From NCBI RefSeq assembly GCF_026153295.1, contig NZ_CP110615.1, positions 3,596,001 to 3,660,000 of the forward strand: a stretch of DNA of 64,000 bases, written 5' to 3'. Below the pieces are notes generated by a model. It ran no database searches and was not told the DNA's origin. It saw nothing but the letters and a program-made list of their open reading frames with translations. The stretch is from Rhodococcus antarcticus (lineage in GTDB: Bacteria; Actinomycetota; Actinomycetes; Mycobacteriales; Mycobacteriaceae). This document shows positions 1 to 15,466 of this stretch, one piece after another (position 1 is the stretch's first letter; each line of letters starts with the position of its first letter). The translations under genes and the position numbers were made by a program.

Positions 1-1869
1 GCGCACCTCGCCGGCCCGCAGCGCGGCGAACGCAGCGTCGCGGTCGTCGCGGGAGGTGGTGCCGGAGACCGCGAGCGCGGGCAGGCCGGCCTCGGTGAAG
101 ACCCGGGCCATGTACTCGGCGTGGGCGACGGAGACGCAGAACCCCAGGGCGCGGATCGACCCGGGGTCGTTGACGGTGTCCCGCAGGGCACTGATGACGA
201 AACGGGCTCTGGCGTCGTTGCCGGTGTAGATCTTGGACAGGCCCGTCACGTCGTAGGCCCCGCGCGTCCACTCCACGTCCCGGAGGTCGGTGCCGTCGGC
301 GATGCCGTAGTAGTGGAAGGGGCAGAGCAGGTCCTGCTCCAACGCGTCCCACAGACGCAGCTCGTGGGCCGTCCGGCCGTCGAAGAAGGACCGGACGTCG
401 ACGCCGTCAGTGCGTTCCGGGGTCGCGGTGAGGCCGAGCAGCTCCTGGGGTCGCAGGGTGTCCAGCAGTCGGCGGTAGGTGGGTGCTTCGGCGTGGTGGA
501 ACTCGTCGATGACCACGACAGCGAACTGGGTGGGATCCAGGTCGAGGCTGGCGAGGCCCTGGATGCTGGCGAACACGTGGCGCCACTGCGTGGGCCGGGC
601 CCCGTCGACGAACTCTTCCCCGAACGAGGCGTCCCCGAGCACGTCGCGGTAGGTGCGCAGGCTCTGCTGCAGGATCTCCCGCCGGTGCGCCACGAACAGC
701 AAGGTCGGACGCGTGCCGGTGCGCTCGCACAGGCGCAGGTAGTCCAGGGCGGCGACCACGGTCTTGCCGGTCCCGGTGGCGGCCACCAGCAGGTTGCGGT
801 GACGGTCGTGGATGGTGCGCTCCACGTCCAGGGCCTCGAGCATCTGCTCCTGGTGCGGGTAGGGCCGCACCTGGGGCCCGCTCGGGGTGGGCACCACCGT
901 GAGCCGCGGGACGAGGGCCAGGCCGGCGGGCGGCGCCTCGGCGGGGTCGTCCTGGGGGACCAGGGGGTAGGCGATGTCCACCGGCCGGCGCACTCCGGGC
1001 CCGTGCGCCTCGTCGAGCGCGGCCGCGAGACGGTCACCGTCGAGGTCGGGGTCGTAGGGGACGAACGCATCGTCGTTCCAGTAGGTGTCGAAGGCGGCGG
1101 AGAACTGCCGCACCAGGGTCGGGGTGGCGACGCCGGAGATGCGCACGTTCCACTCCAGCCCGTCGACCATCGCGGCGTGGCTGAGGTTGGAGCTGCCGAC
1201 GAAGCCGGTGTCGAACCCGCTGCTGCGGTGAAACAGCCACGCCTTGGCGTGCAGCCGGGTGGAGCGGGCGTTGTAGCTGATCCGCACGTCGGCGCCGAGG
1301 TCGCGCACGAGCTGGTCGATGGCGCGGCGCTCGGTGGCCCCCATGTAGGTGGTGGTGAGCACGCGGAAGGGCACGGCGCGGTCGCGGAGCTGCCGGAGCT
1401 GGTCGCGGATGATGCGGATTCCGCTGTAGCGGATGAAGGCGCACAGCAGGTCCACCCGGTCGGCGCTGCCTAGCTCCGAGCCCAGCGCGGCCCCCAGGTT
1501 GGGCTGGTCCTTGGCGTTGGTGAGCAGGGCGACGTCGGAGAGCTTGATGGTCGGCTCGGGGATGAGCCGGTGGACCCCGGAGGACACCTGCTCGGTGAGC
1601 GTGACGAGCTGCTCCAGGGCGACGACCGGGTCCGGGGTGGCAGTGAGGCGCGTCAGCAGCTCGTTCACCGTCGCGATCTGCGCGGCGGGGTCGGCCATGC
1701 TGGACAGCGCCCTGGTCAGCGTCTCGGCGACGTGCCGGGCGAGGACCTCGGGCGCGGAGGCCCCGCTGACCGCGGCGTAGCGCGGCGTGAACGGGCTCGC
1801 CGAGAGTGCTGCTTCCAGTGCGGTCGTGTGCAGCGACTCGTACGCGCCGGCCTGCAAGTCATCCCCCAT
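1..1869 (-). CDS. PLD-like nuclease domain fused to DEAD/DEAH-box helicase (3' end outside window)
   Basis: Open from an ATG at 1869 to the window edge (623 codons visible; the C-terminus is missing). An in-frame TGA at 1879-1881 fixes the upstream limit. Residues about 130-250 form a phospholipase-D-like domain with an HAK motif near residue 211 followed by GSSNLS. A superfamily-2 helicase follows: the Walker A stretch ATGTGKT ends near residue 369, IDEFHH is near 455, then LGLTATPERTDG, and the start of the second RecA domain is visible. This order matches the PLDc-DEAD-DUF3427 family, which is normally over 1000 residues, so roughly 400 are likely missing. Such proteins occur in defence islands, and the neighbours fit. 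Expected activity is ATP-dependent nucleic-acid unwinding or translocation coupled to the PLD-like domain. The exact substrate cannot be inferred. Confidence 0.85.
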   Translation of the reverse strand, partial: MGDDLQAGAYESLHTTALEAALSASPFTPRYAAVSGASAPEVLARHVAETLTRALSSMADPAAQIATVNELLTRLTATPDPVVALEQLVTLTEQVSSGVHRLIPEPTIKLSDVALLTNAKDQPNLGAALGSELGSADRVDLLCAFIRYSGIRIIRDQLRQLRDRAVPFRVLTTTYMGATERRAIDQLVRDLGADVRISYNARSTRLHAKAWLFHRSSGFDTGFVGSSNLSHAAMVDGLEWNVRISGVATPTLVRQFSAAFDTYWNDDAFVPYDPDLDGDRLAAALDEAHGPGVRRPVDIAYPLVPQDDPAEAPPAGLALVPRLTVVPTPSGPQVRPYPHQEQMLEALDVERTIHDRHRNLLVAATGTGKTVVAALDYLRLCERTGTRPTLLFVAHRREILQQSLRTYRDVLGDASFGEEFVDGARPTQWRHVFASIQGLASLDLDPTQFAVVVIDEFHHAEAPTYRRLLDTLRPQELLGLTATPERTDGVDVRSFFDGRTAHELRLWDALEQDLLCPFHYYGIADGTDLRDVEWTRGAYDVTGLSKIYTGNDARARFVISALRDTVNDPGSIRALGFCVSVAHAEYMARVFTEAGLPALAVSGTTSRDDRDAAFAALRAGEVR

Positions 1870-1949
1870 GGTGTGAGCTCACCACGCGGCGCCCGATTCG
1901 TGCAGGAAGGCGCGGACGTAGGCCAGTTGGAGATGGTGCAGAGCTCGCT

Positions 1950-2153
1950 TCATGTGGCGGGACTGTGATCCGGGCACCCGCAGCAGTCGAGGCAGAACCC
2001 CGTGACGTTGAAGCAGGCAATGACGTCCATCTCGGGCGTTGCACAATCGCGGCAGGGGACGAAGGTGAACGCCACGTCCGCCCAGCTGAAGGGTTTGGCG
2101 GTGTCTGACGTCCGAATTCTTGCGACGGAAACGCTGGTTGGATCACGATTCAC
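1950..2153 (-). CDS. Small cysteine-rich protein (67 aa), hypothetical
   Basis: A GTG at 2153 is preceded by GGAGGT with a 9-base gap, a good ribosome binding site. Seven cysteines lie in the C-terminal half as CRDC, a lone C, then a CxxCCxC cluster, which resembles a small zinc ribbon. I do not recognise a family. It lies between the DUF2075 gene and the PLD-helicase gene on the same strand (80 bases before the latter), so it could be co-transcribed with both. Being short, it could also be a spurious reading frame. The spacing of the cysteines and the strong Shine-Dalgarno sequence are the arguments for it. Confidence 0.4.
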   Translation of the reverse strand: MNRDPTSVSVARIRTSDTAKPFSWADVAFTFVPCRDCATPEMDVIACFNVTGFCLDCCGCPDHSPAT

Positions 2154-2308
2154 TTGTCCGGCACCTCCTCGATCCTCATGGTGCTCTACCCCGCCCCGTT
2201 CGTCATTGAGCTCGAGTTCCCAGACGCCGCGCAACCAGACGCGCGGCTGCCCCGGATTGCGTGCGGAAGCCCGTCGGGCCGTGCTCGGTGGTTCGTGGTG
2301 CCGGATGG

Positions 2309-4165
2309 TCAGCGGGGGACCAGCTCGTGCAGTGCCTCCTGCGTCTCGAGGTCGGTCGAGAACAGGACGGTGCCGACCATCCCGCGGGTCAGCAGCACCT
2401 TGTAGACGTGGCGGACCAGGCGGTCGAACTGCGGCTCGGGCACCTTGGTCCGGCTGCGCATGTCCGGGTCGCGGTTGGCCTCGCGGATGGTGGTGAACGC
2501 GCCGTCCCGCCACACCAGGTCCGGCCCGAGGATGACCCCGCTCCAGTCGTACTCGAAGCCCTGCGCGGTGTAGACGCAGCCCACCTGGTCGAAGCCGCCG
2601 TCGTCGGTCGCCCACAGCGCCGAGGGGGGCGCGTTGCCGATCCGCCGGTCGCCCTTGAGGTTCCACGGCCGGGCCCAGCCACCCACCTGCACGTCCGGCA
2701 CCAGGGTCCCGTCGGGCTGGGGGTCGCTCCACGGCCAGCAGTAGCCGGCGGACATCCGCGCCGAGCAGCCCGCGTCGAGCTGGGTGCGCAGCAGGTGCTC
2801 CAGCTCCTCGGGGCCGTCGGCCACGGTCACCGCGAACTGCGGGTCCGGGGCCCAGGCACTGGGCGCGTCGTCGGTGAGCCCGAGCAGGCGCTGCACCCAC
2901 AGCAGGTACTCCTCGCTGCCGCCGCAGCGGAACTGCTCGCCCAGGTGCACGTGCTCGACGTCGATGCCGACGTGCTGGGCGTAGCGGGTGATCTGCTCCA
3001 GCGAGCCCATCTCGCCCGGGCGCACCACCTGGTGCTCGTCGAGCAGGAACACCGGCACCCGCGCGGCGGCGATGAGCTCGTCGACCTGCAGGCGGTCGGT
3101 GCGCAGCGCGGCCTTGGTGTAGCGGTCGACGGAGGTCTGCCGGATGCGGTGGGCCTCGTCGAGGATGAGCACGTCGAGGTCGTTCTCCTCGGCCGTCATG
3201 AACTGGTTGAAGTACTTGAACATGGCCTTGACCCGCGGGTTGCGGTGCCCGGCGACCTTGCGCAGCGTCTGGGTGAACGAGCGTGACCCGGTGGCGTGCA
3301 GGACGGTGCGACCCTTGCGAGCCAGGTCGCCCAGCAGGGACAGCGCCACCACGCTCTTGCCGCTGCCCGGCCCACCCGTCACGACGATGGCGCGCTTGGT
3401 GTTCGACCGACGGGACTGCTCGACGGCGTGCCGCACGAGGTCCACGGCCAGCTGCTGGTTGCCCACCAGGCGGAACTGCTCGCGCTCGCGCACCTCGTCC
3501 GCGGCCACCTTGAGCAGCTGCTTCGACGGGGCGACGGCCGAGCCGAGCAGCTGGTCGGCGGCATCGCGGCCGGGGCCGGGGGCCAGGCGGGTCTGCAGGA
3601 AGCTCACCAGCGCGCCCCGGTCGGCGCCGGTGAACAGCCGGCCGGTGGTGGAGACGGGGTAGCGGCGCAGGTCCGCGGTGGCGGCCGGATCGGTCGCGTT
3701 GTGCAGGTAGGCGAGGCCGGCCAGCGCGTCCGGCTGGTGCTCCAGCGTGCGGAGGAAGTCGGCCAGGTAGGCGCAGTAGCCCTCGACCTGGCGCACCGGG
3801 TGCTGCTTGGGGCCGCCCGGCATGCCCGGCACGTCCACCAGCTCGACCGAGCCCTCGAAGCTGCGCGCCGCCGACCACTGCTTCAGCTCGACCACGACGT
3901 AGGACACCGCACCGGTGCGCGGGTGGGTGCCGCACAGGACGACGTCGGCGCGCTGGGAGGTCAGCGGCAGCTGGTACTCCAGGAGCATCTCGACCTGACC
4001 CAGGCCGGCGTCGGCCAGGTCGGCGGCGAGCACGGGCAGGCTGCGGCCCCAGGAGGTCTGCTCGGCCGGGCTCACCCCGCGCAGCATCCCGGCCAGCAGT
4101 CGCTCGATGATCGAGTCGCTGGTCATGCCGAGCAGGATCGTCGGCGTGGTGCGCAGCAGTGTCAC
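2309..4165 (-). CDS. DUF2075 / schlafen-like helicase with N-terminal PD-(D/E)xK-like domain
   Basis: 618 residues from a GTG with GGGGGA upstream. Residues 1-145 look like a restriction-endonuclease fold: D74 in RADVV and E93-x-K95 in VVVELKQW are candidate catalytic residues. The helicase part has Walker A GGPGSGKS at 264-271, a DEAH box at 336-339, DEHQ further on, and the C-terminal TAQGFEYDW motif typical of DUF2075 proteins. DUF2075 proteins are superfamily-1-like ATPases related to the schlafen group and common in defence islands. The first ~145 codons and about 45 bases of upstream DNA are duplicated at 6677-7155, almost base for base. Role in phage or plasmid defence is an inference from context. 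Confidence 0.85.
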   Translation of the reverse strand: MTLLRTTPTILLGMTSDSIIERLLAGMLRGVSPAEQTSWGRSLPVLAADLADAGLGQVEMLLEYQLPLTSQRADVVLCGTHPRTGAVSYVVVELKQWSAARSFEGSVELVDVPGMPGGPKQHPVRQVEGYCAYLADFLRTLEHQPDALAGLAYLHNATDPAATADLRRYPVSTTGRLFTGADRGALVSFLQTRLAPGPGRDAADQLLGSAVAPSKQLLKVAADEVREREQFRLVGNQQLAVDLVRHAVEQSRRSNTKRAIVVTGGPGSGKSVVALSLLGDLARKGRTVLHATGSRSFTQTLRKVAGHRNPRVKAMFKYFNQFMTAEENDLDVLILDEAHRIRQTSVDRYTKAALRTDRLQVDELIAAARVPVFLLDEHQVVRPGEMGSLEQITRYAQHVGIDVEHVHLGEQFRCGGSEEYLLWVQRLLGLTDDAPSAWAPDPQFAVTVADGPEELEHLLRTQLDAGCSARMSAGYCWPWSDPQPDGTLVPDVQVGGWARPWNLKGDRRIGNAPPSALWATDDGGFDQVGCVYTAQGFEYDWSGVILGPDLVWRDGAFTTIREANRDPDMRSRTKVPEPQFDRLVRHVYKVLLTRGMVGTVLFSTDLETQEALHELVPR

Positions 4166-4494
4166 CAGTAGTTCCCCCGGGCAGCACGAACAGAGTCGTG
4201 CGGGTGGGGGCGTGTCCGGTGCTCACGTGCTCAGCGGGGGAAGCCAGTCGGGCCGCGGAGGTGAGGGTAGCGGGCGGGGTGTCTCGCGATACCTGGCGCG
4301 GTCCGGCAAGTGGGACACGCACTCTGCAGCGGCGTGCAGCGAAACCCTGGCTTCCACTCACTGCCCGGTGGGCTGGTCGAGCCTGTGAAGATGTCATCGA
4401 CGCATGGCCTGGGCGCAACCTCGGGCATCGAACGAGTCTGACATAGCTAGTGTCGACGTGACGTCTGTGAAAGAGCTAGCCCAGGGGGTTTGTA
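4166..4494. promoter_or_regulatory. Divergent intergenic region between DUF2075 and hydrolase genes
   Basis: These 329 bases hold no convincing gene. The first ~45 bases next to the DUF2075 start recur upstream of its truncated copy (7113-7155), so they probably include its leader or promoter. Near the hydrolase gene there is a short near-palindrome, GACA-TAGCTAG-TGTC, at 4440-4454, roughly 40 bases before the hydrolase GTG, in a position suited to a promoter or operator. AGGGGG at about 4482-4487 serves as the ribosome binding site of the hydrolase. The stretch is less GC-rich than the flanking genes. Confidence 0.35.
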
Positions 4495-6333
4495 GTGCGA
4501 ACGCTCGTCTATCTGCACGGCATCGGCAAGGCAAATTCGGACTGGCTGAGCAGCTTGAATCGCAGTCTGGTGCAGCAGGGGATACCCGCCATCGAGCAGC
4601 CGGCGGTCGCGGCTCCGACGTACGCCGACATTCTGGGGGACAACGGCCATGAGGCTGACGTCCCGGCCATGACGTACCGCGTGGACGACGACGATGGCGC
4701 ACGCCGTGATTTTGAGCGTCGCCAGGCGGCGTTGTACCGGCGGCTCAGTGCACAACCGGGAGTGCGGGGCTTCGGATTCAGACATCTCGCGGACGGCATG
4801 GTTGGCGCGGGAGCAGATGTCGCCCTCGGGGTCGACCTGGGTGTGCTCCGGCAAGTGAACAACTACGTCTGCAGCGAGGGCGTGCGAGGTGCGGTGCTGC
4901 GGCGGATCCTCTCGCACATTCCTACCAGGGGGGAGATTGTCCTGGTGGCGCACAGCCTGGGCTCGGTCATCGCGATCGACCTGCTGGATCACCTACCGCC
5001 CTCAATTCATGTCAGCCGTTTCATCACGATCGGCAGCCCCGCGAACGTCGACTCCCTGCACAAGAGCAGCGAGCGGCTGCTCAAGAAGTTCCCCTACGCC
5101 CGGGTGGACGACTGGACCAACTTCTTCGGGCCTCGCGACATTGTCCCTGCTGGGCGTGGGCTGGCGAGGCACTTTCCCGGTGCGCAGGACTTCGAGGTGG
5201 ACATCGGCGTAGCCCACGGCGCCGCGAAGTACCTGGAGCAGCCAGTGATCGCCGAGCTCGTGGGCGAGATGTTCACTGAACGCCAAACGCTCGCCGCCGG
5301 CACGCCGTCCACGGAGCTGGCTCTCCCGGTCAGCTCGGATGACGAGAACGTTCTGCTCGGCCTTGCCCTGGGTCACGCGATCGCCGCACACACCGGGAAC
5401 GCTGCGGCAGCGGAGCGTTACCGCTCAGCCCTCGGCCTCGTCCAGGACAACCTGCTGGCCCTGGCGACCGAGGTTGCGGCCTCGGCGCGCCGCGGCGTGC
5501 CCAGCGAGGTCCTGGCGTTGGCCTCTGGCCTGCCGCCGCAGGTCCCGCAGAACGTGGGGCAGAAAGATGCTGTTCTGCGGCTGACCACCCTGGCCGAGAC
5601 CAACATCATCACCCCGTACGAGATCGACACCGGCAAGGCCATGGATGCCGCGCTGCTGGACATCGCGGGCCAGCTCGGTTTCGGTGCGAACCTCGGCAAG
5701 ATGGTCGGTGAGGCGCTGGCGGAGGTGCGCGAGCACACCGGTCGCAAGGGTGTGCCGTGGGGGCGCGTGTTGAGTGGTGCCGCGGGGCTCGCGCTGATCG
5801 CGGCAGGCCCGGTGGGGCTAGCGGTAGCCATGCCCGCGGGGGTGTTCGGGGGTGCGGCCATCGCAGGAGGACTCGCCGCGTTTGGTCCGGGCGGGATGCT
5901 CGGTGGCGTGGCGATGTTCGGCGGACTCGCCGGCGCTGGTGCGGCTGCAGCTGCCGCCGCGGCCGTCAGCGGACACGGCGCCGTGTCGGCCGCGCAGCGG
6001 GCCGAGACCCTCCTAGTGCGGGTCGCCGCCCAGCGCGCGCTCCAGCTGCTCCAACTGCCCCGTGACCCCGACGTGTGGTTCGCCGTGACCAATCTCGAGA
6101 CGGCGCTCTCGTCGGAGCTCGCGCGCCTGCGGCCATTCAGTGACTCCAAGGCAGCGGGCCTCGCCGAGCGGGAGCGCGCGCTGGCCCTCGTGACGTCGCT
6201 GCTCGGCTTCCTGACGTTGCACAAGTTGGGACCTGAAGCGCTGGAGCAGCCCGAACAAGGTGCCATCCCCGAAGGCCGACCGGCGCGAGCGGCGGTGGTC
6301 AGCCTGGTGCGGCGTCAAATCGGTCGACGGTGA
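4495..6333 (+). CDS. Alpha/beta hydrolase with glycine-rich hydrophobic C-terminal region
   Basis: 612 residues from a GTG behind AGGGGG. Residues 1-250 form an alpha/beta-hydrolase: LVYLHGIG at 4-11 (oxyanion loop), nucleophile elbow VAHSLGS with Ser154, then candidate Asp215 (GPRDIVP) and His241 (GVAHG), a complete lipase/esterase triad. Residues about 260-420 are helical with no family I recognise. Residues about 421-490 are a long Gly/Ala-rich hydrophobic stretch with repeated small-xxx-small spacing, like a membrane-inserting glycine zipper, followed by a charged helical tail. No signal peptide is seen. Hydrolase plus membrane-seeking tail, next to defence-type helicases, suggests an effector attacking membrane lipids or lipid-linked substrates. 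That is inference; a housekeeping esterase is the alternative. Confidence 0.75.
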   Translation: MRTLVYLHGIGKANSDWLSSLNRSLVQQGIPAIEQPAVAAPTYADILGDNGHEADVPAMTYRVDDDDGARRDFERRQAALYRRLSAQPGVRGFGFRHLADGMVGAGADVALGVDLGVLRQVNNYVCSEGVRGAVLRRILSHIPTRGEIVLVAHSLGSVIAIDLLDHLPPSIHVSRFITIGSPANVDSLHKSSERLLKKFPYARVDDWTNFFGPRDIVPAGRGLARHFPGAQDFEVDIGVAHGAAKYLEQPVIAELVGEMFTERQTLAAGTPSTELALPVSSDDENVLLGLALGHAIAAHTGNAAAAERYRSALGLVQDNLLALATEVAASARRGVPSEVLALASGLPPQVPQNVGQKDAVLRLTTLAETNIITPYEIDTGKAMDAALLDIAGQLGFGANLGKMVGEALAEVREHTGRKGVPWGRVLSGAAGLALIAAGPVGLAVAMPAGVFGGAAIAGGLAAFGPGGMLGGVAMFGGLAGAGAAAAAAAAVSGHGAVSAAQRAETLLVRVAAQRALQLLQLPRDPDVWFAVTNLETALSSELARLRPFSDSKAAGLAERERALALVTSLLGFLTLHKLGPEALEQPEQGAIPEGRPARAAVVSLVRRQIGRR

Positions 6334-6339
6334 GCCCCG

Positions 6340-6676
6340 ACCGTCACGCCGACGAAGATCACCGCCTGGCTGGACTGCGCCCACTTCCTGACGCTGGCCC
6401 ACCAGGTCGACGACGGCACGCGCGAGGCGCCGGGCGGGGGCATGGGGGCCTTCGCCCGGCTGCTGGTCGACAAGGGCCTGCAGCACGAGGCGGCGTGACT
6501 GGCCGAGTACGAGGCGCAGGGCCTGCGGGTGCTTCGGGTGCCGGACCGGGAGCGTCGGGAGTCGTTCCAAGCCTGGGCGACTCGGGTCAGGGGAACCTTC
6601 AGCGGTGACGACGACGTGAACTACCAGACGCCCCTGGTGCACACCGGGATCAGCGGCATCGCCAACTTCCTGGTCG
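6340..6676 (+). pseudogene. Truncated second copy of the RecB-like nuclease/helicase gene (5' part only)
   Basis: Begins 7 bases after the hydrolase stop. Positions 6340 to about 6570 are nearly identical to 9616-9846, the start of the large nuclease-helicase gene. After that the protein similarity continues (GISGIANFLVG against GIRGIADFLLR) but the bases diverge, so the source was a homologous allele rather than a very recent copy. The start codon region is missing, and codon 58, a TGC cysteine codon in the intact gene, is TGA here (6496-6498). Homology stops abruptly at about 6676, where an inverted fragment of the DUF2075 gene begins. Not expected to make a protein. Confidence 0.88.
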
Positions 6677-7112
6677 GATGGTGCTCCAGCGTGCGGAGGA
6701 AGTCGGCCAGGTAGGCGCAGTAGCCCTCGACCTGGCGCACCGGGTGCTGCTTGGGCCCGCCCGGCGTGCCCGGCACGTCCACCAGCTCGACCGAGCACTC
6801 GAAGCTGCGCGCCGCCGACCACTGCTTGAGCTCGACCACGAGGTAGGACACCGCGCCGGTGCGCGGGTGGGTGCCGCACAGGACGACGTCGGCGCGCTGG
6901 GAGGTCAGGGGCAGCTGGTACTCGAGCAGCATCTCCACCTGGCCGAGGCCGGCGTCGGCCAGGTCGGCGGCGAGCACGGGCAGGCTGCGGCCCCAGGAGG
7001 TCTGCTCAGATGGGCTCACCCCGCGCAGCATCCCGGCCAGCAGTCGCTCGATGATCGAGTCGCTGGTCATGCCGAGCAGGATCGTCGGCGTGGTGCGCAG
7101 CAGTGTCACCAC
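6677..7112 (-). pseudogene. Truncated second copy of the DUF2075 helicase gene (first ~145 codons)
   Basis: Reads from a GTG near 7112 and matches the first ~145 residues of the protein encoded at 2309-4165 with only a handful of changes (for example a Phe-Glu-Cys for Phe-Glu-Gly). Similarity ends after TLEHHP, at the junction with the inverted RecB-helicase fragment. The open frame continues about 18 codons into antisense DNA before stopping. About 45 bases of upstream DNA are copied too (to about 7155). It keeps the nuclease-like motif with E and K but lacks the whole ATPase. A short chimeric protein could still be made, but decay is the simpler reading. Confidence 0.85.
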
Positions 7113-7483
7113 TGTGTCCCCCGGGCAGCACGAACAGAGTCGTGCGGGCGGGGGCTGATCTGCGCGGAGCGCGCCGACTCTTCAGCTCTAAACCCAACTT
7201 CGCCACTTCACCCCGTCAGGTGAAGAGCTCAGCGGTGAAGTAGTGGGCATGGACGGCAACGGACCTCGTCGAGCTCCTCGATCTCCTCGTCGTGAACTGG
7301 AAACTCATCGCGGGGCAGCACCGCCTTGGGGGCTTGATGACGGGAAAAACGGGCAATCGGTGACCGGATGGTCAGATGCCGGAAAAAACAGTCGCAGGGT
7401 GGCGGTGGGCGGCTGGCCACGACGGGGTAGAGGCGGTCGGCGGGGTACGTCCTACCTGGTTGATCGGGACGTCAGCCGCGGTG
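7113..7483. other. Gene-free stretch after the duplicated fragment, with inverted repeat
   Basis: No credible gene in these 371 bases. To about 7155 it repeats the DUF2075 leader. At 7206-7225 there is an inverted repeat, CTTCACC, six bases, GGTGAAG, followed at 7234 by another GGTGAAG, which could be an operator or an attachment-like site. An open minus-strand frame at 7229-7420 is short and atypical, and I do not call it. Confidence 0.4.
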
Positions 7484-8476
7484 TCACTGGCCCTGTGCCG
7501 TCCGCCAGGCCTGGGTGATCTCCGGACGCAACCGCCCCCGGTCGGACACTGCGAGCCCTTGCTCGCGCGCCCAGGCCCGCACCTCGGACGTGCTGGGCAG
7601 CTCGACCGCCGCAGGGCCGATCCGCGCCACCGCGGCCTGCTCCTCCGACGCCCAGGCGTGCGCAGCGGCGAGCCAGCGGTAGGTCCACTCCTCGGCGGTC
7701 TTGCGGTTGTCGCAGAACACGATCGGGATGGTCGGCCAGCGCACCTGCAGCTCCGCCAACCCGTCGGCCACCGTCGCCGGCTGTGCCCACTCCTGCTTGA
7801 AGATCGCCGGGTAGCGGTCCTCCACGACTACCGCGGCCCGGCCGAGGGTGGCCAGCTCGGTGAGGGCGAAGCGCAACCGCCCGCTGGTGAGGCTGGAGAC
7901 CAGGTCGGTCAACGACTTCCGCTCCACGGCGGCCACCACCTTCCCGTCGAGCTCCACGGCGTAGTCCCCGCAGGCGAGCGCGCGCTTCGTGGTGCGCACC
8001 TGCTGGCCGGGGAAGGAGTACGCGTAGCGCTCGTGGGCATCGACGACGACGTCCAGCTCCACGATGCCGGCGGCCCGCGCGGTGGGCAGCCGCACGTTCG
8101 GGCGCGCCTGCTTGCGGGTGCGGGGGGACTGCCAGAACACCATCTCCCGCCCGCGCGCCACGGTGAACACGACCTGGGAGCGGTGCTCGCGGGCCCGGTC
8201 GGCGACGACGTCGATCGCCGCACCCCGTCGGGCGCACGCGCGCAGCGGCACCCGCTCCACCACGTCCGGCTCCGCGGGCCACTCGTCGAGGGTGACCGGG
8301 TGGCAGTACAGCGCCGACGTCCGCGGCCAGGTCCCCTTGGTGCGGAACACCAACCCGTCGCCCAGCGGCAGGAGCAGGAGGTACGGCAGCGAGCTGTCCG
8401 GGTCCGGGTTGCGCGCGATCACCAGCTCCACGAGGGCATCCTGCCGCAGGGGGGTGCACCGGCCGGTGCACGTCAT
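7484..8476 (-). CDS. ERCC4-type nuclease with Lsr2-like DNA-binding tail
   Basis: 330 residues from ATG 8476. The central domain carries the ERCC4/XPF nuclease signature: D147 (VVVDAHERY), GDY at 170-172 and VERK at 184-187 followed by DL. The residues at about 298-325 (EVRAWAREQGLAVSDRGRLRP) resemble the C-terminal DNA-binding domain of Lsr2, the actinobacterial xenogeneic silencer that reads AT-rich minor grooves. The fusion would direct a structure-selective nuclease to Lsr2-type sites, possibly foreign DNA. The N-terminal ~130 residues are unassigned. No strong Shine-Dalgarno sequence is seen, and upstream in-frame DNA overlaps the opposite-strand antitoxin gene, so ATG 8476 is the most economical start. 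Confidence 0.8.
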   Translation of the reverse strand: MTCTGRCTPLRQDALVELVIARNPDPDSSLPYLLLLPLGDGLVFRTKGTWPRTSALYCHPVTLDEWPAEPDVVERVPLRACARRGAAIDVVADRAREHRSQVVFTVARGREMVFWQSPRTRKQARPNVRLPTARAAGIVELDVVVDAHERYAYSFPGQQVRTTKRALACGDYAVELDGKVVAAVERKSLTDLVSSLTSGRLRFALTELATLGRAAVVVEDRYPAIFKQEWAQPATVADGLAELQVRWPTIPIVFCDNRKTAEEWTYRWLAAAHAWASEEQAAVARIGPAAVELPSTSEVRAWAREQGLAVSDRGRLRPEITQAWRTAQGQ

Positions 8477-8572
8477 GACCCACGAGCACAGCTCGACGGG
8501 GATGGATCGCGCACAGGCGGGATGTCGAACGTGGGTGTTGACATCCCTCGCGGGGCGGACGGAGACTGAGCC

Positions 8573-8905
8573 ATGGCCACCTCCCGAGACGCGCTGCCGC
8601 TGCGGTTCAAGAACCCGCGGACCAAGGAGGCGCTCCGGGAGCTGTCCGCGCAGACCGGCGCGTCGATGACCGACATCGCGGAGAAGGCTGTCGAGCACGA
8701 GCTCGCCCTGCTCGGCGCCGATCTCGAGCGGCGGCTCGTCGCGGCGTTGGACGTCGTGCAGTCCTACACGCCGGAGGTCGACCTCGAGGCGTACCTGGCC
8801 GAGGTGGCCGTGGGTGAGCGCTCGGGTCTGGAGCCCGTGCGGTCGGTGCGCGCGAGGCACCTGGACGACCGGTTCGGGGTGCTCGCGGCGTTCCGGCAGG
8901 GCTGA
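8573..8905 (+). CDS. Putative antitoxin of the Fic toxin (110 aa)
   Basis: Starts at ATG 8573 after GGAG with suitable spacing. The N-terminal 45 residues read LPLRFKNPRTKEALRELSAQTGASMTD..., the pattern of a ribbon-helix-helix antitoxin (a beta strand followed by two helices with a GxS turn). The C-terminal half is acidic and could cover the toxin. The stop is separated by two bases from the GTG of the Fic gene, so the pair should be translated together. I find no clear (S/T)xxxE(G/N) inhibition motif, so inhibition might differ from the VbhA type. A DNA-binding, autoregulating antitoxin is the likely role. Confidence 0.65.
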   Translation: MATSRDALPLRFKNPRTKEALRELSAQTGASMTDIAEKAVEHELALLGADLERRLVAALDVVQSYTPEVDLEAYLAEVAVGERSGLEPVRSVRARHLDDRFGVLAAFRQG

Positions 8906-8907
8906 CC

Positions 8908-9564
8908 GTGCCGGGTCCGCCCTGGGGCGAGGACAGCTCGGCCGACGAGATCCTGGTGGCGGCGCACGTGGTGACGCTGCTGCGCGAGCTCGTGGGGCGT
9001 GCGCCCGAACGCCTCGGGCCTACCGTGGGCATGGCCCACACCTGGCACCGGGCGATCTACCGCGGAGTGGGCTCCGTCCCGCTCGAGTCGTACCTGGGCG
9101 CGCCGCGCGGCAGCACGCCCGAGCTCGACGGGTACGAGGTGGGCCTGCTCGACCACCGCGGTCGCCTGACGGCCCAGGCAGTGCCGGCGGCCGATGTGCG
9201 TTCCGCCCTGAGTGGCTTCCAGCGTTCGGTCACCGCGGCCGTGGCGGTGCTCGACGACGTGATCCCCGTCGGGGCGCGACCCCGGGGTGGTGATGAGCTG
9301 ATGGCGGTGCTGAGGCTCGCCGCGGAGGTGCACGGTGAGTGGGTGCGCATCCACCCGTACGCGAACGGCAACGGCCGGGTGGCACGCGTGTGGGCGAACT
9401 GGTTGGCCCTGCGCTACGGGCTGCCGCCGTTCGTCCGGATCAAGCCCCGCCCCGACGGGCTGTACTACGCCCAGGCTGCGCACCGCAGCATGCGGCTGGG
9501 CGACCACGCGCTGACGGCGCAGGTCTTCCTCGACCTGCTGCGGGCGGCGCCGGGCACGCGGTGA
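8908..9564 (+). CDS. Fic/Doc-family AMPylase-type toxin
   Basis: 218 residues from a GTG two bases after the antitoxin stop. The Fic core motif is intact: HPYANGNGR at 149-157, matching HPFx(D/N)GNGR, with the catalytic His149 and the phosphate-binding Asn/Gly/Arg residues, followed by the usual helix. Fic enzymes transfer AMP or other nucleotide groups onto protein hydroxyls; Doc relatives phosphorylate EF-Tu. The N-terminal helical region (residues 1-130) is long and could hold regulatory contacts. The target cannot be told from sequence. Its position directly after the putative RHH antitoxin and inside a defence-type island supports a toxin-antitoxin role. Confidence 0.85.
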   Translation: MPGPPWGEDSSADEILVAAHVVTLLRELVGRAPERLGPTVGMAHTWHRAIYRGVGSVPLESYLGAPRGSTPELDGYEVGLLDHRGRLTAQAVPAADVRSALSGFQRSVTAAVAVLDDVIPVGARPRGGDELMAVLRLAAEVHGEWVRIHPYANGNGRVARVWANWLALRYGLPPFVRIKPRPDGLYYAQAAHRSMRLGDHALTAQVFLDLLRAAPGTR

Positions 9565-9600
9565 GGCAGGAGCTGTCAGCCCCTCCCGCACAGTGTCCCC

Positions 9601-12600
9601 ATGACCCCCGCGCGCACCGTCACGCCGACGAAGATCACCGCCTGGCTGGACTGCGCCCACTTCCTGACGCTGGCCCACCAGGTCGACGACGGCACGCGCG
9701 AGGCGCCGGCCGGGGGCATGGGGGCCTTCGCCCGGCTGCTGGCCGACAAGGGCCTGCAGCACGAGGCGGCGTGCCTGGCCGCGTACGAGGCGCAGGGCCT
9801 GCGGGTGCTGCGCGTGCCGGACCGAGAGCGGCGGGAGTCGTTCGCGCAGCACGTGTCCCGGACCCGTGGGGTGTTCGACAGCAACGCCGACGTGCTCTAC
9901 CAGCTGCCGCTGGAGCACGACGGGATCCGCGGCATCGCCGACTTCCTGCTCCGCACCGTCGACGCCGAGGGCCGGGTCAGCTGGGAGCCGGTGGACGCCA
10001 AGCTGGCCCGCGCGCAGGCCAAGCCCGGCCACGTCCTGCAGCTGTGCTTCTACGCCGAGGCCATCGCCGCGGCCACCGGTACCCGCCCGGCCTGGATGCA
10101 CCTGTGGCTGGGCTCGGGGGTGGTGGAGACGTTGCGGGTGGGCGACTTCAGCGCGTACTGGCGGCGGCTGCGCAACCAGCTCGCCACGGTGCTGGCCGCC
10201 CCGGGGGACTTGCTGGCCACCACCCCGGAGCCGTGCGAGCACTGCGCGTTCTGCACCTTCGTCGACGTGTGCGACGCGCAGTGGCGGTCGGAGGACTCGC
10301 TGGTCTACGTCGCCGGTCTGCGCGCCCCGGAGCGGGACACCCTCGAGCTGGCGGGCGTCGACACCCTGGCCGCGCTGGCCGTGCGCACCACCGACGTCGA
10401 CGGGCTGGGCCCGCAGCGGCGGCAGCGCCTGGTCACCCAAGCCGCCCTGCAGCGCCGGGCTCGGGAGACCGAGGGCGCCCACCCGCCGTACCTGCTCGTC
10501 GAGCCGGGGGAGGACCCGACGTGGGGGCACGGCTTCGCCCAGCTGCCCGAGCCCGACGACGGGGACGTGTTCCTCGACTTCGAGGGCCACCCGTTCTGGC
10601 GGGCCGACACGGGGCTGTTCTTCCTGCTCGGCCTCATCGAGCGCGACTCGGTGAGCACCTGGGCCTACCGCACCTGGTGGGCGCACACCCAGGAGCAGGA
10701 GCAGGCCGCGTCGCTCGCCCTCATCGAGCACCTGGCCGCCGGCCGCGCCGCCCACCCGGGCATGCACGTCTACCACTACAACCACACCGAGCGGTCGTCG
10801 CTGGAGCGGCTGGCGACCACCTACGGCGTGGGCGAGGTGACCCTGGCGCAGCTGGTCGACACCGGAGCGTTCGTCGACCTGTTCCTCGTGGCCCGCAACG
10901 CCGTGCAGGTGGGCACCGAGTCCTACGGGCTCAAGCACCTGGAGCGGCTCACCAGCTACGAGCGCGGCCACGACGTCGAGGCCGGTGCGGGGGCGGTGCT
11001 GGAGTACGAGGAGTACACGACGACGGGGAGCGCCACCGCGCTGGACCGCATCGCCGACTACAACGAGGACGACGTGCGGGCCACCCGGGCGTTGCGGGAC
11101 TGGCTCGTCGACCACCGTCCCGCCGACCTGCCCTGGCGCGCCGCCGAGCTCGAGCCCGACAGCTTCCTACCCGAGCTGGACGAGATGGTCGCCGCGCTGC
11201 ACGCCTCCGGGCCGGGCAGCACCGAGCACCTGCTGGGCGACGTGCTCGGCTACTGGCGCCGGGAGCACTCCGCGTACGTGACGCCGCTGCGGGCGCGGTG
11301 CGCGGCGGCACCGGAGGACCTGCTCGACGACCCGGAGGCCGTGGCCGGGCTGGTGTGCGTCGGGCTCGAGGAGCGGGTGGGCAAGACCGGCAAGCCCATC
11401 ACCCCGGTCATGCGGTTCACCGTGCCGGAGCAGGACGTCAGCGGGTTCGCTGACGGGGACTCGCTGATCTACCTGACCCCCGAGGGGCAGACCGTCTACG
11501 GGTCCGTGGCCCGGCTCGAGGCCGGCGAACTGGACCTGGTCTGGAACGAGAAAAGCGCGGAGCTCGGCTGCCTGCCGGAACAGGTGGTGCGCTACGACTA
11601 CGTGCAGCCCAAGCCGAAGCCGGAGGCGCTGAACGAGCTGGCCACCGAGGTGCTCGGCGGCAGCGCGCCCAACCCCGTCGCGATGGCCCTGCTGCGGCGC
11701 GACCTCCCGGCTTTCGTGGACGGCGGTGGCCCGCCCGGCGGGGTGTTCAGCGACAACCTCGACGAGATGCTCGCCTGGGCCACCCGGCTCGACGGGTCCC
11801 TGGTCGCGATCCAGGGCCCGCCCGGCACCGGCAAGACCTACCGCGGCGCCAAGCTCGTGAAGGCACTGGTGGGGGCCGGACTCCGGGTCGGCATCACCGC
11901 GTTCAGCCACAGCGCGATCGACAACCTGCTGGAGGCCGTGGTGCGGGAGGTGGACCCGGGGGTGCTGCGGGCGGTGAAGCGTGGGCCTCGGGCGCCGATG
12001 GGGGCGCTGAGCGGCGTCGCCCACGCCGCGAACGGGAAGGCGGCCGCGAACGCGAAGTACAACGTTGTCGCGGGCACGACGTGGCTGTTCGCCGGCAACG
12101 ACATGGCCGACGCCCCGGTGGACGTGCTGCTGGTCGACGAGGCCGGGCAGCTGGCCCTGGCCGATGCCCTCGCCGCCTGCCGCTCGGCCCGCACCCTCAT
12201 CCTGCTGGGCGACCCGCTGCAGCTGCCCCAGGTCGCGCAGGCCGTGCACCCCGGCGGCAGCGGGGCCAGCGTCCTGGAGCACCTGCTCGGCGAGGACGCG
12301 ACGATGCCGCCCGAGCGCGGGGTGTTCCTGGCGCAGACCCGGCGCATGCACCCGGACGTGGCCACGTTCATCTCCACCGAGATCTACGAGGGCCGCCTTA
12401 CCACCCACCCCAGCTGCGCGGCGCAGTCCACCGACCTGGGCACCGGGCTGCGCTGGCTGCGCGCCGAGCACGTCGGGCGGAGCACGCAGGCGCCCGAGGA
12501 GGCGGAGGTGGTGGCCGCGGAGATCGCCCGGCTGCTGCAGGTGGGGTGGACCGACGCGGCCGGGGTGCGCGGGCAGCTGGAGGCCGCCGACATCCTCGTG

Positions 12601-12930
12601 GTCGCGCCCTACAACGACCAGGTGCACCTGCTGCGCGAGCGGCTGGACGCCGACCCGGCGACGTCCGGGCTGGCCGTGGGCACCGTCGACAAGTTCCAGG
12701 GCCGGGAGGCGGCGGTGGTGTTCTTCACCATGACCAGCTCCTCCGCGGCGGACATCAGCCGCGGGGCGGACTTCCTGTTCTCCCGCAACCGGCTCAACGT
12801 GGCCGTCAGCCGCGCCCGGTGCCTGGCCTACCTGGTGTGCACCGAGGAGCTGCTGAACAGCCGGGGCCGCGACGTGGAGGAGATGCGGCTGATCTCCACC
12901 CTGTGCTCGTTCGTGGAGGGGTGCGGCTGA
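9601..12930 (+). CDS. RecB-like nuclease / RNase H-like / SF1 helicase fusion (TM0106-type)
   Basis: 1109 residues from ATG 9601. Domains in order: a Cas4/RecB-like PD-(D/E)xK nuclease, with Cys18 and a cluster CEHCAFCTFVDVC at about 212-224 that would ligate a 4Fe-4S centre; an RNase-H-like exonuclease of the YprB type, with FLDFEGHPFW at about 323-332; and a C-terminal superfamily-1 helicase, with Walker A GPPGTGK at about 740, DEAGQ at about 846, GDPLQLPQ, KFQGREA at about 1031 and NVAVSRAR at about 1066. It should process and unwind DNA, or RNA-DNA, ends. Homologous starts are found at 6340-6676. A defence role is inferred from the neighbours; a repair role is also possible. Confidence 0.9.
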   Translation: MTPARTVTPTKITAWLDCAHFLTLAHQVDDGTREAPAGGMGAFARLLADKGLQHEAACLAAYEAQGLRVLRVPDRERRESFAQHVSRTRGVFDSNADVLYQLPLEHDGIRGIADFLLRTVDAEGRVSWEPVDAKLARAQAKPGHVLQLCFYAEAIAAATGTRPAWMHLWLGSGVVETLRVGDFSAYWRRLRNQLATVLAAPGDLLATTPEPCEHCAFCTFVDVCDAQWRSEDSLVYVAGLRAPERDTLELAGVDTLAALAVRTTDVDGLGPQRRQRLVTQAALQRRARETEGAHPPYLLVEPGEDPTWGHGFAQLPEPDDGDVFLDFEGHPFWRADTGLFFLLGLIERDSVSTWAYRTWWAHTQEQEQAASLALIEHLAAGRAAHPGMHVYHYNHTERSSLERLATTYGVGEVTLAQLVDTGAFVDLFLVARNAVQVGTESYGLKHLERLTSYERGHDVEAGAGAVLEYEEYTTTGSATALDRIADYNEDDVRATRALRDWLVDHRPADLPWRAAELEPDSFLPELDEMVAALHASGPGSTEHLLGDVLGYWRREHSAYVTPLRARCAAAPEDLLDDPEAVAGLVCVGLEERVGKTGKPITPVMRFTVPEQDVSGFADGDSLIYLTPEGQTVYGSVARLEAGELDLVWNEKSAELGCLPEQVVRYDYVQPKPKPEALNELATEVLGGSAPNPVAMALLRRDLPAFVDGGGPPGGVFSDNLDEMLAWATRLDGSLVAIQGPPGTGKTYRGAKLVKALVGAGLRVGITAFSHSAIDNLLEAVVREVDPGVLRAVKRGPRAPMGALSGVAHAANGKAAANAKYNVVAGTTWLFAGNDMADAPVDVLLVDEAGQLALADALAACRSARTLILLGDPLQLPQVAQAVHPGGSGASVLEHLLGEDATMPPERGVFLAQTRRMHPDVATFISTEIYEGRLTTHPSCAAQSTDLGTGLRWLRAEHVGRSTQAPEEAEVVAAEIARLLQVGWTDAAGVRGQLEAADILVVAPYNDQVHLLRERLDADPATSGLAVGTVDKFQGREAAVVFFTMTSSSAADISRGADFLFSRNRLNVAVSRARCLAYLVCTEELLNSRGRDVEEMRLISTLCSFVEGCG

Positions 12931-12934
12931 GCGG

Positions 12935-13291
12935 TCAGGGCAGGAGCGGGACGAGCTTGGCTGAGACGTCGGTGGCGATCGGGCACGGGTCGACCTTGCC
13001 GATGGAGACGAACTTCAGCGAGGCGTGCACCACCACGGCGGGGGATCCGCTGGCCTGGGACGCCACGGCTACGTATCAGCTGTTCGGGTCATTGGTGGCG
13101 AAGCTGACGGAGTCCCGGCCCTGCAGCGACGACGTGGTGATGTTGGCCATGTCTTCGCAACGACGCACTGCCTGCTCGGCCACCCCGGTCTCCATCCGCA
13201 GGTGCCCGGACTGCGCTGTCTACGACAGGGCTGACCACTGCGTCTGCGTCTGCTTGAGCTGCACGGCCTGTGCCGCCATCGGCTCCAACAT
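12935..13291 (-). pseudogene. Decayed DUF3558-like / ESX-associated-like gene remnant
   Basis: One minus-strand frame from ATG 13291 to TGA at 12935 reads like two joined conserved pieces but contains two in-frame stops, a TAG after WSALS and a TGA at 13076-13078. The upstream part (AQAVQLKQTQTQWSALS, then LRMETGVAEQAVRRCEDM) resembles small helical proteins that accompany ESX/WXG genes. The downstream part ends GKVDPCPIATDVSAKLVPLLP, like the C-terminus of DUF3558 lipoproteins. No lipobox or signal peptide remains. I infer a remnant of a common actinobacterial lipoprotein locus. Family assignment is tentative. Confidence 0.4.
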
Positions 13292-13409
13292 CGTTGCGAA
13301 CTCGGGTCAGCGTCGGCCGGGCTGGCGTGGGGATCACTGCCATGAGCACGGCGCGATCAACAATCTGCGGGAGGCGGAGGGGGGCAACGGGGGGGGGTGG
13401 GGAGACGCC

Positions 13410-13650
13410 TCAGCCCGGCGGTCGTCTGACGCGCAGGCCGGTGCGCGTGGAGTCCTCACTGACGCAGAGGATCGGGTGCCCGGGCCGCTCGGGGAGGGCG
13501 TGGGTACAGCAGTCGCCGAAGTTCGGCTGGGCCGGGTGGCGCCCCTTGCCGAAGCGCCGCCACGCGTCGACGGCCCGAGCGGCGAGGTGCGCGCCGAGCT
13601 GGGCGACCCGACCTTCGTCACCTGGTACGCGGTGGTGGAGCGGCCGGGTG
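13410..13650 (-). pseudogene. C-terminal fragment of a VapC-type PIN-domain toxin
   Basis: The frame ending at 13410 contains RAVDAWRRFGKGRHPAQPNF then GDCCTHAL, closely matching the typical C-terminal half of VapC toxins (AWRRFGKGRHPA.LNFGDC, with the acidic Asp of GDC), followed by a degraded version of the usual ending. The N-terminal half with the first catalytic Asp is absent or shifted out of frame, and no VapB antitoxin is visible. I call it a dead remnant. The exact 5' limit is uncertain. Confidence 0.55.
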
Positions 13651-13653
13651 AGC

Positions 13654-15081
13654 TCAGGGCCATGCCCGGAGCAGGTCGGCGGAGTCCCACACCTGCGCCA
13701 GCCCGTCTGCCCGGGATCCGGCGGGACACACCGCAACCAGCGCGGTACCCACGTCGACACCGGGCACGGCGGCCGCGTCACGTGCGAGGGCGGCCACCTC
13801 CGCCGCGGTCACCGGGCTGCGCTGGCGCCACTTGACCGTCCCGACCAGGGAGACCGTGTCCGCGCTGCGCGGCCGGTCAGCGCCCACGAGGTCGATCTCG
13901 GGGATGTTGTTCCGAGGCCACCAACCACCCACGGCACTGACCGCCGGCCACCGCTCGTCGGGCAGCAGGCGCTCGAGCGCATCGCGCACGACTGGCTCGA
14001 CTGCGCGTCCCCGCCACGACGGGTAACCGGCGTCGAACCGGGCCACGGCCAGGTCTCCACGCCCGCGGTCGATCTCGGACAACGCCGGCTCGACGAAGGC
14101 CAGCCAGAACCGCAGGGCGGGATCGGCGATCCGGTACCGACGGTCGCGCCGGCCGGACCTGGTCGACAGTGGCTCGTCGGCCGTGACGATCCGCTTGTCC
14201 TGGAGCTGCCTCAGGCTGGTGGTCAGGCTGGCTGCGTTGAGCGGTGCGCCCCTCGACGCCTGTTGGATGCCGGTGAAGGTGCGCTCGCCCCGCCCGCCGA
14301 TGGCTCTGAGCACCTGGTGCGCCAGGCTCGTCTCGCCCACCTCGCCGTCCAGCACCCGGGTCCCCGCGACGACCAGCGCGCTCGTGGAGCTGTCGACGCT
14401 GGTGGCGAAGAACTGCGCGGCGCTCTCGCCCGGCCGCCACTCCCGGGCGATGAGCGGCAGCCCCCCCGTGAGCAGGTAGGCGTCGATCGCGTCGAAGGGC
14501 TCCAGCTCGGTCATCCGCTGCACGTCGACCGGGTTCAGCGGGTGCAGCACCATCTCGGTGGCCCGTGCGTGGAACGGCTGGTCCGCTGCCGCCAGCTGTT
14601 CCATCAGCGAGAGGTCGCTGCCGAGCAGGAGCAGCAGCACGGGTTTGCGGGACAGCACGGTGTCCCAGGCCCTCTGCAGCTCCCCTGCTCCACCGGCGAA
14701 TCCCTCGAGCAACCAGGGAACTTCGTCGATGACGACCACCGACGGGGTGTCCGGAAGTGCCGCTCCGAGCAACATCAGTGCAGCGGTGAGTGTGCTCGGG
14801 GTGTTCCCCGCCGCTACTGCGGCGAGCGGCAAGGACGAGACGGCGACGGCCTGGGCCAGCAGGTCGAGCTCCTGTCCAGGCGGTGCGCCGCGTGCGGCCT
14901 GGAAGTAGACAGACGGGAGACCGCTGCGGGCGATGAACTCGCTGACCAGCCGCGACTTGCCCACCCGGCGACGTCCTCGCAGCAGCAGGGCGACGCCCTG
15001 ATCAGCTCTGCGTCCCTCCACGACGACGTGCAGGAGGCGGTCGAGGTCCTCGAGCTCCCGTGCTCGTCCGATGAAGCTCAT
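13654..15081 (-). CDS. Archaeal-type AAA ATPase with C-terminal DUF234 nuclease-like domain
   Basis: 475 residues from ATG 15081 (MSFIGRARELEDLDRLL, the standard start of this family), with AGGAGG three bases upstream. Walker A is GRRRVGKS in the first 70 residues and Walker B is VVVIDEVPWLLEG. A winged-helix middle region is followed by a DUF234 region (IADPALRFWLAFVEP), which in this family resembles a PD-(D/E)xK nuclease fold and contains EIDLVGADR, then KW. Such ATPase-nuclease fusions are widespread in archaea and actinobacteria and of unknown function, often in mobile or defence loci. A frameshifted XRE regulator ends 11 bases upstream, so the two probably formed an operon. Confidence 0.8.
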   Translation of the reverse strand: MSFIGRARELEDLDRLLHVVVEGRRADQGVALLLRGRRRVGKSRLVSEFIARSGLPSVYFQAARGAPPGQELDLLAQAVAVSSLPLAAVAAGNTPSTLTAALMLLGAALPDTPSVVVIDEVPWLLEGFAGGAGELQRAWDTVLSRKPVLLLLLGSDLSLMEQLAAADQPFHARATEMVLHPLNPVDVQRMTELEPFDAIDAYLLTGGLPLIAREWRPGESAAQFFATSVDSSTSALVVAGTRVLDGEVGETSLAHQVLRAIGGRGERTFTGIQQASRGAPLNAASLTTSLRQLQDKRIVTADEPLSTRSGRRDRRYRIADPALRFWLAFVEPALSEIDRGRGDLAVARFDAGYPSWRGRAVEPVVRDALERLLPDERWPAVSAVGGWWPRNNIPEIDLVGADRPRSADTVSLVGTVKWRQRSPVTAAEVAALARDAAAVPGVDVGTALVAVCPAGSRADGLAQVWDSADLLRAWP

Positions 15082-15092
15082 GATCCTCCTGA

Positions 15093-15123
15093 CTATGGTC
15101 GTCCATAGTATGGCTGACCATAG
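15093..15123. promoter_or_regulatory. Double palindrome upstream of the DUF234 ATPase
   Basis: CTATGG-TCGT-CCATAG (15093-15108) is followed immediately by GTATGG-CTGA-CCATAG (15108-15123), two six-base inverted repeats with four-base spacers in tandem. They begin 12 bases before the ATPase start codon and overlap the 3' end of the frameshifted XRE gene. Placement and symmetry suit an operator for a dimeric repressor, perhaps the XRE protein itself. Binding is not shown by sequence. Confidence 0.5.
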
Positions 15124-15453: not shown

Positions 15454-15466
15454 GATCCCGGCCCGA

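Follow-up and report, generated by a model that had tools for sequence, protein, structure and literature searches.

A probable relic junction between two versions of a Schlafen-type helicase locus in Rhodococcus antarcticus, and a putative leader RNA at the helicase gene

Translational riboswitches and leader RNAs sequester the Shine-Dalgarno site of the genes that they control. Among helicase-containing systems, Mokosh includes a second, partner protein. At the protein level, the available text of PMC12839542 describes Schlafen-family proteins as RNases in defence. EVE-HNH fusions are named in PMC7641849, the searched text of which holds no mention of DUF2075 or Schlafen. Titles and abstract openings in PubMed Central, with preprints outside the scope, gave no account of a pairing of the Schlafen-type (SLFN) and RecB genes described below or of a leader at SLFN genes.

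Gene order and the junction at 6340-7155

The window (the whole 64,000 nt stretch that was analysed) is part of a 3.68-Mb contig in a 3.94-Mb genome of four contigs. From left to right, the locus carries SLFN (-), a hydrolase gene (+), a 5′ fragment of RecB (+), a 5′ fragment of SLFN (-), an ERCC4 gene (-), a PSK/Fic pair (+) and RecB (+). The intact SLFN gene (2309..4165, minus strand) encodes an SLFN-g3 (DUF2075) protein of 618 aa with a C-terminal Schlafen-group-3 helicase (Pfam PF09848, E = 2.7e-85). In its N-terminal third D74 and E93-x-K95 are invariant across an alignment of nine sequences, and the N-terminus is putatively PD-(D/E)XK-like, as assigned from the motif alone. No solved relative of this part was found by sequence, the Schlafen nuclease-core domain gave no Pfam match in SLFN, and AlphaFold2 run on SLFN with one relative returned a mean pLDDT of 35.6. 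The intact RecB gene (9601..12930, plus strand) encodes a TM0106-type protein of 1109 aa with Pfam matches to PDDEXK_1, RNase_H_2 and an AAA_11/AAA_12 helicase. Relatives of both SLFN and TM0106 were recovered in plasmid protein searches, in both cases at <60% identity. The window contains no tRNA genes.

Two sets of cargo genes lie between these flanks. Cargo 1 (4495..6333, plus strand) is an alpha/beta-hydrolase-like protein with a Gly/Ala-rich hydrophobic stretch, assigned by eye and without a Pfam match; the GC3 of its gene (0.81) is lower than that of SLFN and RecB (0.98). Cargo 2 consists, by Pfam, of an ERCC4-domain nuclease with an Lsr2 DNA-binding tail (7484..8479, minus strand) and a PSK_trans_fac (Rv0623-like) protein followed by a Fic protein (8573..9564, plus strand). 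The ERCC4-Lsr2 gene shares ~74% DNA identity with genes on two large mycobacterial plasmids, so that cargo 2 may come from plasmids; it was the only part of the locus matched when the whole locus was searched against plasmids.

Between the two sets of cargo, a RecB-helicase 5′ pseudogene (6330..6675, plus strand) abuts an SLFN 5′ pseudogene (6675..7155, minus strand). Repeat finding showed that 6340-6567 matches 9616-9843 (228 nt, 96% identical) and that 6675-6974 matches 3731-4030 (300 nt, 96%), the latter being lengthened by alignment to 6675-7155 against 3731-4211, while 6568-6675 aligned as a diverged homologue of the intact RecB gene. The similarity of the joined fragments to the intact genes is far beyond chance. 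The start-to-start spacings of the repeats are 2944 and 3276. At a minimum length of 40, positions 1-16000 held no further direct repeats except one 42-nt pair at 71%, and the sequence flanking the blocks 6340-6567 and 6675-7155 is without a match between copies. Protein searches of the whole genome found one intact copy and one fragment each of SLFN and RecB, plus one extra stretch elsewhere at 29% (E = 5e-4). At the join itself (6675) at most a few bases are shared, which makes the join illegitimate.

A closer inspection of the RecB fragment revealed several kinds of damage. Its initial GTG and the TGA stop of the hydrolase gene overlap, strict homology begins only at codon 6, the weak match over the start region contains a 5-nt deletion, an internal TGA stands at codon 58 and the end is cut at 6675. 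The first-pass annotation had both fragments retaining their 5′ ends and joined at about 6676; the join and the SLFN end stand, and the RecB fragment lacks the first bases of the gene. A switch from near-identity to divergence, placed by the same annotation at about 6570, was recovered near 6567, where 18-20 of 20 bases agree per 20-base block before the switch and 10-17 of 20 after it. Before 6567, eight of 76 codons differ (four silent, four not, one of the latter a stop), and in the tail peptide 19 of 37 residues equal those of the intact protein by ungapped count. The best match of the tail is to a Blastococcus locus (62% over 42 positions), with a Frankiales locus at 61%. Given this divergent tail and its Blastococcus match, two quite distinct homologues have recombined in the fragment, and this mosaic bears out the recombination that had been proposed for it.

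The SLFN fragment, supported by repeat finding, alignment and a match to the leader model R1 described below (44.6 bits at 7112-7187), keeps 145 codons of open frame before it is cut, together with 46 nt upstream. Fifteen of these 145 codons differ from the intact gene, of which 10 are silent and 5 replacing. All five replacements lie on the fragment, since at these codons the intact copy carries the residue of both outgroups, G016 and G078. By comparison with G016, six of the 10 silent differences are changes in the intact gene, two are changes in the fragment and two are ambiguous; the second outgroup, G078, conflicts with G016 at three of the 10 (codons 33, 58 and 61). The six silent changes on the intact gene argue against the fragment being just a recent copy of it. 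The pair reads as alleles that probably diverged under selection, the fragment then decaying after loss of function. Truncation, a stop or frameshift and replacements at conserved sites, all marks of pseudogenes, are present in the fragments. Upstream, P3 is the one leader hairpin that survives in the SLFN fragment (within 7110-7155), homology ending at the 5′ edge of P3. P1, P2 and a -10 box were not seen by eye at the fragment, which is therefore probably not expressed.

Together with the intact genes, the fragments give the order SLFN5′-RecB5′-SLFN5′-RecB5′, a set of interleaved direct repeats in which the two fragments themselves are convergent. An interleaved 1-2-1-2 pattern of this kind (spacings 2944 and 3276) is the mark of two SLFN(-)-cargo-RecB(+) units in tandem, and the convergent look of the fragments would be no more than the boundary between them. 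Two haplotypes with different cargo between the same flanks would thus have come to lie in tandem. One route is integration of a circularised SLFN5′-cargo-RecB5′ piece through a single crossover in SLFN, its join being the one at 6675; the other combines tandem duplication with deletion. By either route, the inner SLFN and RecB copies would have decayed after the tandem arrangement arose. In principle one event is enough, as a circularised piece and a single crossover yield exactly this order. A simple un-duplicated locus was not found in any close relative, and this two-haplotype history is for that reason inferred from geometry and codon changes. The first-pass annotation had instead assumed a second, convergent RecB/SLFN pair whose middle was deleted. 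Second 5′ ends and missing middles are indeed there; the supposed convergent pair is more plausibly a junction of two divergent units.

It is also conceivable, although unlikely, that the joined fragments came ready-made through an unrelated transposition or repair insertion. The illegitimate join, with so few shared bases, would suit such an origin, but interleaved direct repeats at such similar spacings fit tandem units and not a random insert. Moreover, positions 1-16000 hold no inverted repeat of at least 40 nt, and no transposase domain was detected in the seven proteins scanned. The stretch 6340-7155 is most likely a non-functional remnant left where two versions of the locus lie side by side, and not a defence system.

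Neighbours of the SLFN and RecB genes in other genomes

The two copies of each 5′ end within 11 kb had also been taken as a sign that SLFN and RecB formed a convergent two-gene module, duplicated and then bereft of its middle, whose proteins act together, perhaps in defence. This predicts that the genes neighbour each other elsewhere. SLFN matches were present in 77 genomes besides its own, and 49 loci were examined with ~8-10 kb of flanking sequence per side, contig ends permitting. They comprised 37 of the 57 matched in the family (E<=1e-3) and 12 of the 20 matched in the phylum (E<=1e-40), with most weak or fragmentary matches omitted. A full TM0106 gene lay within ~9 kb of SLFN in a single locus (G016), and weak, partial helicase matches occurred near SLFN in L070, L081, L095 and L101. 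In G016 the two genes are separated by ~2.6 kb that include a transporter gene, a proximity that would favour the module, but they are divergent, so that the sole other linked case does not reproduce the convergent order. The G016 gene is only 35-37% identical to the window RecB and 76-88% identical to the copy in G042, of the same genus. In G042 the similarity to G016 stops just upstream of the TM0106 gene, and there is no SLFN on the two short contigs available for it; by this comparison the G016 gene is a genus-conserved one.

The converse search gave a similar picture. At most three candidates per genome were scored in the RecB family search. No SLFN was found in the available flanks of the best 80 of 124 RecB relatives from genome contigs (30 of the 80 loci with at least 3 kb on both sides, 21 with the full 10 kb on both sides). 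Among 396 phylum genomes, SLFN (E<=1e-40) occurs in 21 and the RecB subfamily (E<=1e-100) in 16. Both occur in two, against ~0.85 expected, and these two are the source genome itself and G605, where the genes lie on separate contigs. With linkage in 1/49 and 0/80 loci and joint presence in 2/396 genomes, the search for neighbouring genes above expectation speaks mostly against a module, which we consider very unlikely. SLFN and RecB are flanks, not partners, and the inference of joint function is not supported. The repeated co-occurrence within one locus is a single event and not evidence for joint function. The junction itself is an ordinary relic of allele recombination, correctly observed and over-read as to function.

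A different gene is the usual neighbour of SLFN. Of the 29 family loci with the leader described below, 17 have an ORF of ~290 residues directly downstream of SLFN (the copy in L103 being broken) and 12 lack it. Examples are L064:7039-7953, L069:10738-11631, L079:7895-8770 and L084:7668-8579, among others. Six long partner proteins of the 17 were scanned, and HNH_2 (PF13391) was above cut-off in all six, whereas an EVE match was seen in two of the six below the curated cut-off (E of 6e-4 and 2e-3). Full-length relatives of this EVE-HNH protein were found in none of 44 family genomes lacking an SLFN match (three had matches to the HNH part) and in three SLFN-positive controls, one of which (G141) is the source of the query. 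From these neighbourhoods, the natural unit would be SLFN together with an EVE-HNH-like nuclease, as a restriction-like pair. In G016 (L064:4169-6946), a 443-residue ORF and a cytosine methyltransferase, predicted by eye, follow SLFN/EVE-HNH, much like a restriction-modification locus. Distant SLFN genes in L195-L197 overlap or adjoin a downstream ORF that is MazG-like by eye, a different partner.

The source genome has no full-length EVE-HNH gene, its only match being to the HNH part and on another contig. In the window a second leader-like element starts at 2283, 25 nt past the SLFN stop, and then breaks off. This remnant (2217..2283, minus strand; 5′ part only) is recognised by its motifs and by R1 at 26.5 bits, with E = 0.049 in 551 kb and E = 0.35 in the source genome. 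In relatives such a second element precedes the partner ORF, and the EVE-HNH gene has been lost from the window locus. The element before the EVE-HNH ORF shares leader sequence motifs and is 97% paired under a proposed structure. It shows no compensatory change and is not above shuffles, and is for lack of covariation claimed by sequence motif only.

A conserved leader upstream of SLFN

Nucleotide searches showed that SLFN homology extends for ~100 nt ahead of the start codon, including in a group whose proteins are 54-57% identical. The conserved part is a leader of ~70-105 nt, directly after a -10 box, with a proposed P1-P2-P3 fold, and is present in 34 of the 49 SLFN loci. Its consensus opens with GCGGCCCGACGGRCTTCC, a variable hairpin (missing in some) and GGACAYG, and closes with CCCCCACCCGCACGA-loop-TCGTGCTGCC-GGGG, with the start codon ~6-10 nt further on. 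No locus was matched by a leader DNA pattern of fixed length, because the pattern leaves the variable hairpin no freedom in length. In the window the element lies at 4168..4257 on the minus strand (70.5 bits with R1, as well as alignment and pair counts), and a -10-like TACCCT stands 6 nt before it (4264..4269, minus strand). A promoter scan of 1900-9700 gave no site. P3 occupies 4210-4174, and its final GGGGG (4178-4174) precedes the GTG at 4165 by 8 nt; the Shine-Dalgarno-like GGGG is thus enclosed within P3.

Counts for the leader use 36 distinct sequences of 37, L082 being a duplicate of L081. Pairwise identity averages 0.81 within the leader, compared with 0.62 over the preceding 90 nt and 0.68 over the first ~90 bases of the coding region. 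A -10-like TANNNT ends 5-8 nt ahead of the leader in 30 of the 36, the six without it forming the L188-L191 group. At this distance, transcription should start at the first bases of the leader. Eight of the 49 loci (L091-L094 and L097-L100, a second SLFN clade, 55-61% identical) have a variant leader with CGGCCCGACAG and CCACCCG motifs and the pattern CGGCCCGACAG...GGCTCCA...TGGAGCC; five of these eight have a different, unassigned downstream ORF of ~165 residues. The leader is absent from seven of the 49 loci, in which the only SLFN is <=42% identical. Two tandem SLFN paralogues (~55% and 38% identical to the window gene), each with its own leader, are found both at L190:7761-11906 and at L191:8274-12353, so that the leader does occur at these two second copies of 38% identity.

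In a plain MAFFT alignment of the 36 sequences, a structure of 26 pairs leaves 85.4% of cells paired, compared with 30-50% for slid partners. Both sides have changed in 29 cells against 18 in shuffles (none of 500 as high), and two-sided change affects nine pairs against 6.7 (14 of 500). Counted over the SLFN protein tree by parsimony, the unfitted alignment contains nine double compensatory changes, whereas permuted partners give 2.2 (maximum 8, 0/500). Eight of the nine lie in the variable P2 stem. In a model-fitted alignment of 42 sequences, 88.6% of cells are paired, with 44 two-sided cells and 12 such pairs, and the same parsimony count rises to 24 against 2.1 (maximum 7). P3 is nearly invariant, and its pairing therefore rests on conservation and energy. 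Other measures were flat: further pair types were not above shuffles on the unfitted alignment (22 vs 23.7), RNAalifold alone on the leader alignment returned just 14 pairs with almost no covariation, and single-sequence folding of eight leaders was mostly unremarkable against shuffles (z from -0.19 to -2.99; -0.52 for the window). In Rfam no leader matched at gathering score, three weak hits of 4-13 bits falling far below it. The leader is apparently a conserved folded RNA for which no previous description was found.

At E<=0.001 the covariance model R1 gave 35 hits, spread over 34 of the 251 family genomes; at E<=0.01 it gave nine hits in six of the 396 phylum genomes, of which seven, in five genomes, were new. 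All 42 hits (39 genomes) sit at SLFN genes or pseudogenes. A closer inspection of 39 hit loci found an SLFN gene or fragment downstream in 38, the other being the weak 3′ element of the source genome. Four more hits lie at SLFN genes by coordinates, including an SLFN pseudogene in G099. As a control, 49 loci chosen via other genes (872 kb; 40 of the 80 RecB loci and 9 others) gave no R1 hit at E<=1. Among viral contigs there was one SLFN relative and among phage records four, of which one, at 62% identity, was inspected. Outside the model set, the leader stands directly upstream of SLFN in a viral contig (L243), a phage record (MT836681), a Streptantibioticus plasmid and G092. Of six additional SLFN loci from plasmids or viruses, three (at 51, 52 and 40% identity) lack it. 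The leaderless copies are two Streptomyces plasmid SLFN genes (L245, L246), both with an ordinary GAGGAG ribosome site instead of the leader, and one from Nocardiopsis.

Proposed role and comparison with known systems

The leader occupies a fixed position between promoter and start codon at one gene family and its structure carries compensatory changes, mainly in P2 and weakly in P3, as befits a cis-regulatory leader. Most likely it acts as a cis-acting RNA for translational control. SLFN would head a unit that in relatives is often an operon with EVE-HNH as well, and its mRNA would begin with the leader, in which P3 would hide the ribosome site and hold translation down. A protein, a small ligand or a change of cell state may open P3; the P1-P2 part, with its conserved loop, might bind something or refold and so free P3. 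The related element before the EVE-HNH ORF suggests common control of both genes.

That the same conserved stretch is a DNA operator, or an N-terminal extension of the coding region, and not a folded RNA is improbable. It does start right after the -10 box, and in 17 of the 36 sequences an ATG ahead of P3 reads in frame into SLFN without a stop; of the other 19, 10 lack this ATG and nine have it out of frame or interrupted by a stop, so that a protein-coding extension is disfavoured by the reading frames. Compensatory changes in excess of permuted partners also count against both forms of this idea, as does the P2 stem, which varies in sequence and length yet mostly stays paired. A role in trans, such as that of an RNA antitoxin or of a decoy bound by SLFN or EVE-HNH, would accord with the occurrence of sequence-related elements ahead of both operon genes, and with Schlafen-family proteins being defence RNases in the accessible text of PMC12839542. 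The element nevertheless sits immediately ahead of the start codon, its P3 containing the Shine-Dalgarno-like stretch, and a simple-pattern terminator scan of 1900-9700 in the window found no site, which leaves a trans-acting role distinctly improbable.

Taken together, these data point to a non-functional tandem-haplotype junction at which SLFN and RecB are flanks and the SLFN leader serves translational control, an explanation that as a whole we regard as quite probable. More tentatively, the leader could be a true switch that silences translation of SLFN and, through the second related element, of EVE-HNH, and is opened by phage infection or translation stress. If so, a riboswitch-like sensor would sit within a two-gene restriction or defence operon on actinobacterial chromosomes, plasmids and phage-like contigs, and RNA control of restriction-like genes would offer a testable handle on how cells restrain such nucleases. 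In place of the RecB pairing, the locus points to a neighbourhood-supported partner, EVE-HNH, and to a conserved leader RNA at nuclease-helicase genes.

Each part of the locus can be set against a described system. The RecB protein scores above the cut-off of the TM0106 family (TIGR03491; 191 vs 97 bits) and falls in a mostly actinobacterial group with 48-66% identity (best 80 of 124 loci). The PADLOC models for MkoA and MkoC of Mokosh match its helicase part (151 and 94 bits), the best stretches spanning only residues 818-1090 and 905-1074, which are helicase only. The second Mokosh protein is absent among the six window proteins scanned, and RecB is not classed as Mokosh. Like leader RNAs that sequester the Shine-Dalgarno site, the SLFN leader starts at the inferred transcription start and its last stem encloses GGGG; unlike the known ones, it is without an Rfam match and is found at one gene family only. 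The SLFN partner resembles the VcaM4I-type EVE-HNH modification-dependent endonucleases, as described in the accessible part of PMC7897488, in having HNH_2 and, in two of six, a weak EVE match. It differs from them in being a second gene behind SLFN with a leader-like element, and in being absent from the window. With the bacterial Schlafens of anti-phage defence (bioRxiv 10.1101/2025.07.24.666596, as cited in PMC12839542), SLFN shares the name of a Schlafen-type helicase. Unlike those proteins, in so far as that citing text describes them, the protein here has a Schlafen group 3 helicase and, by motif, a putative PD-(D/E)XK-like N-terminus.
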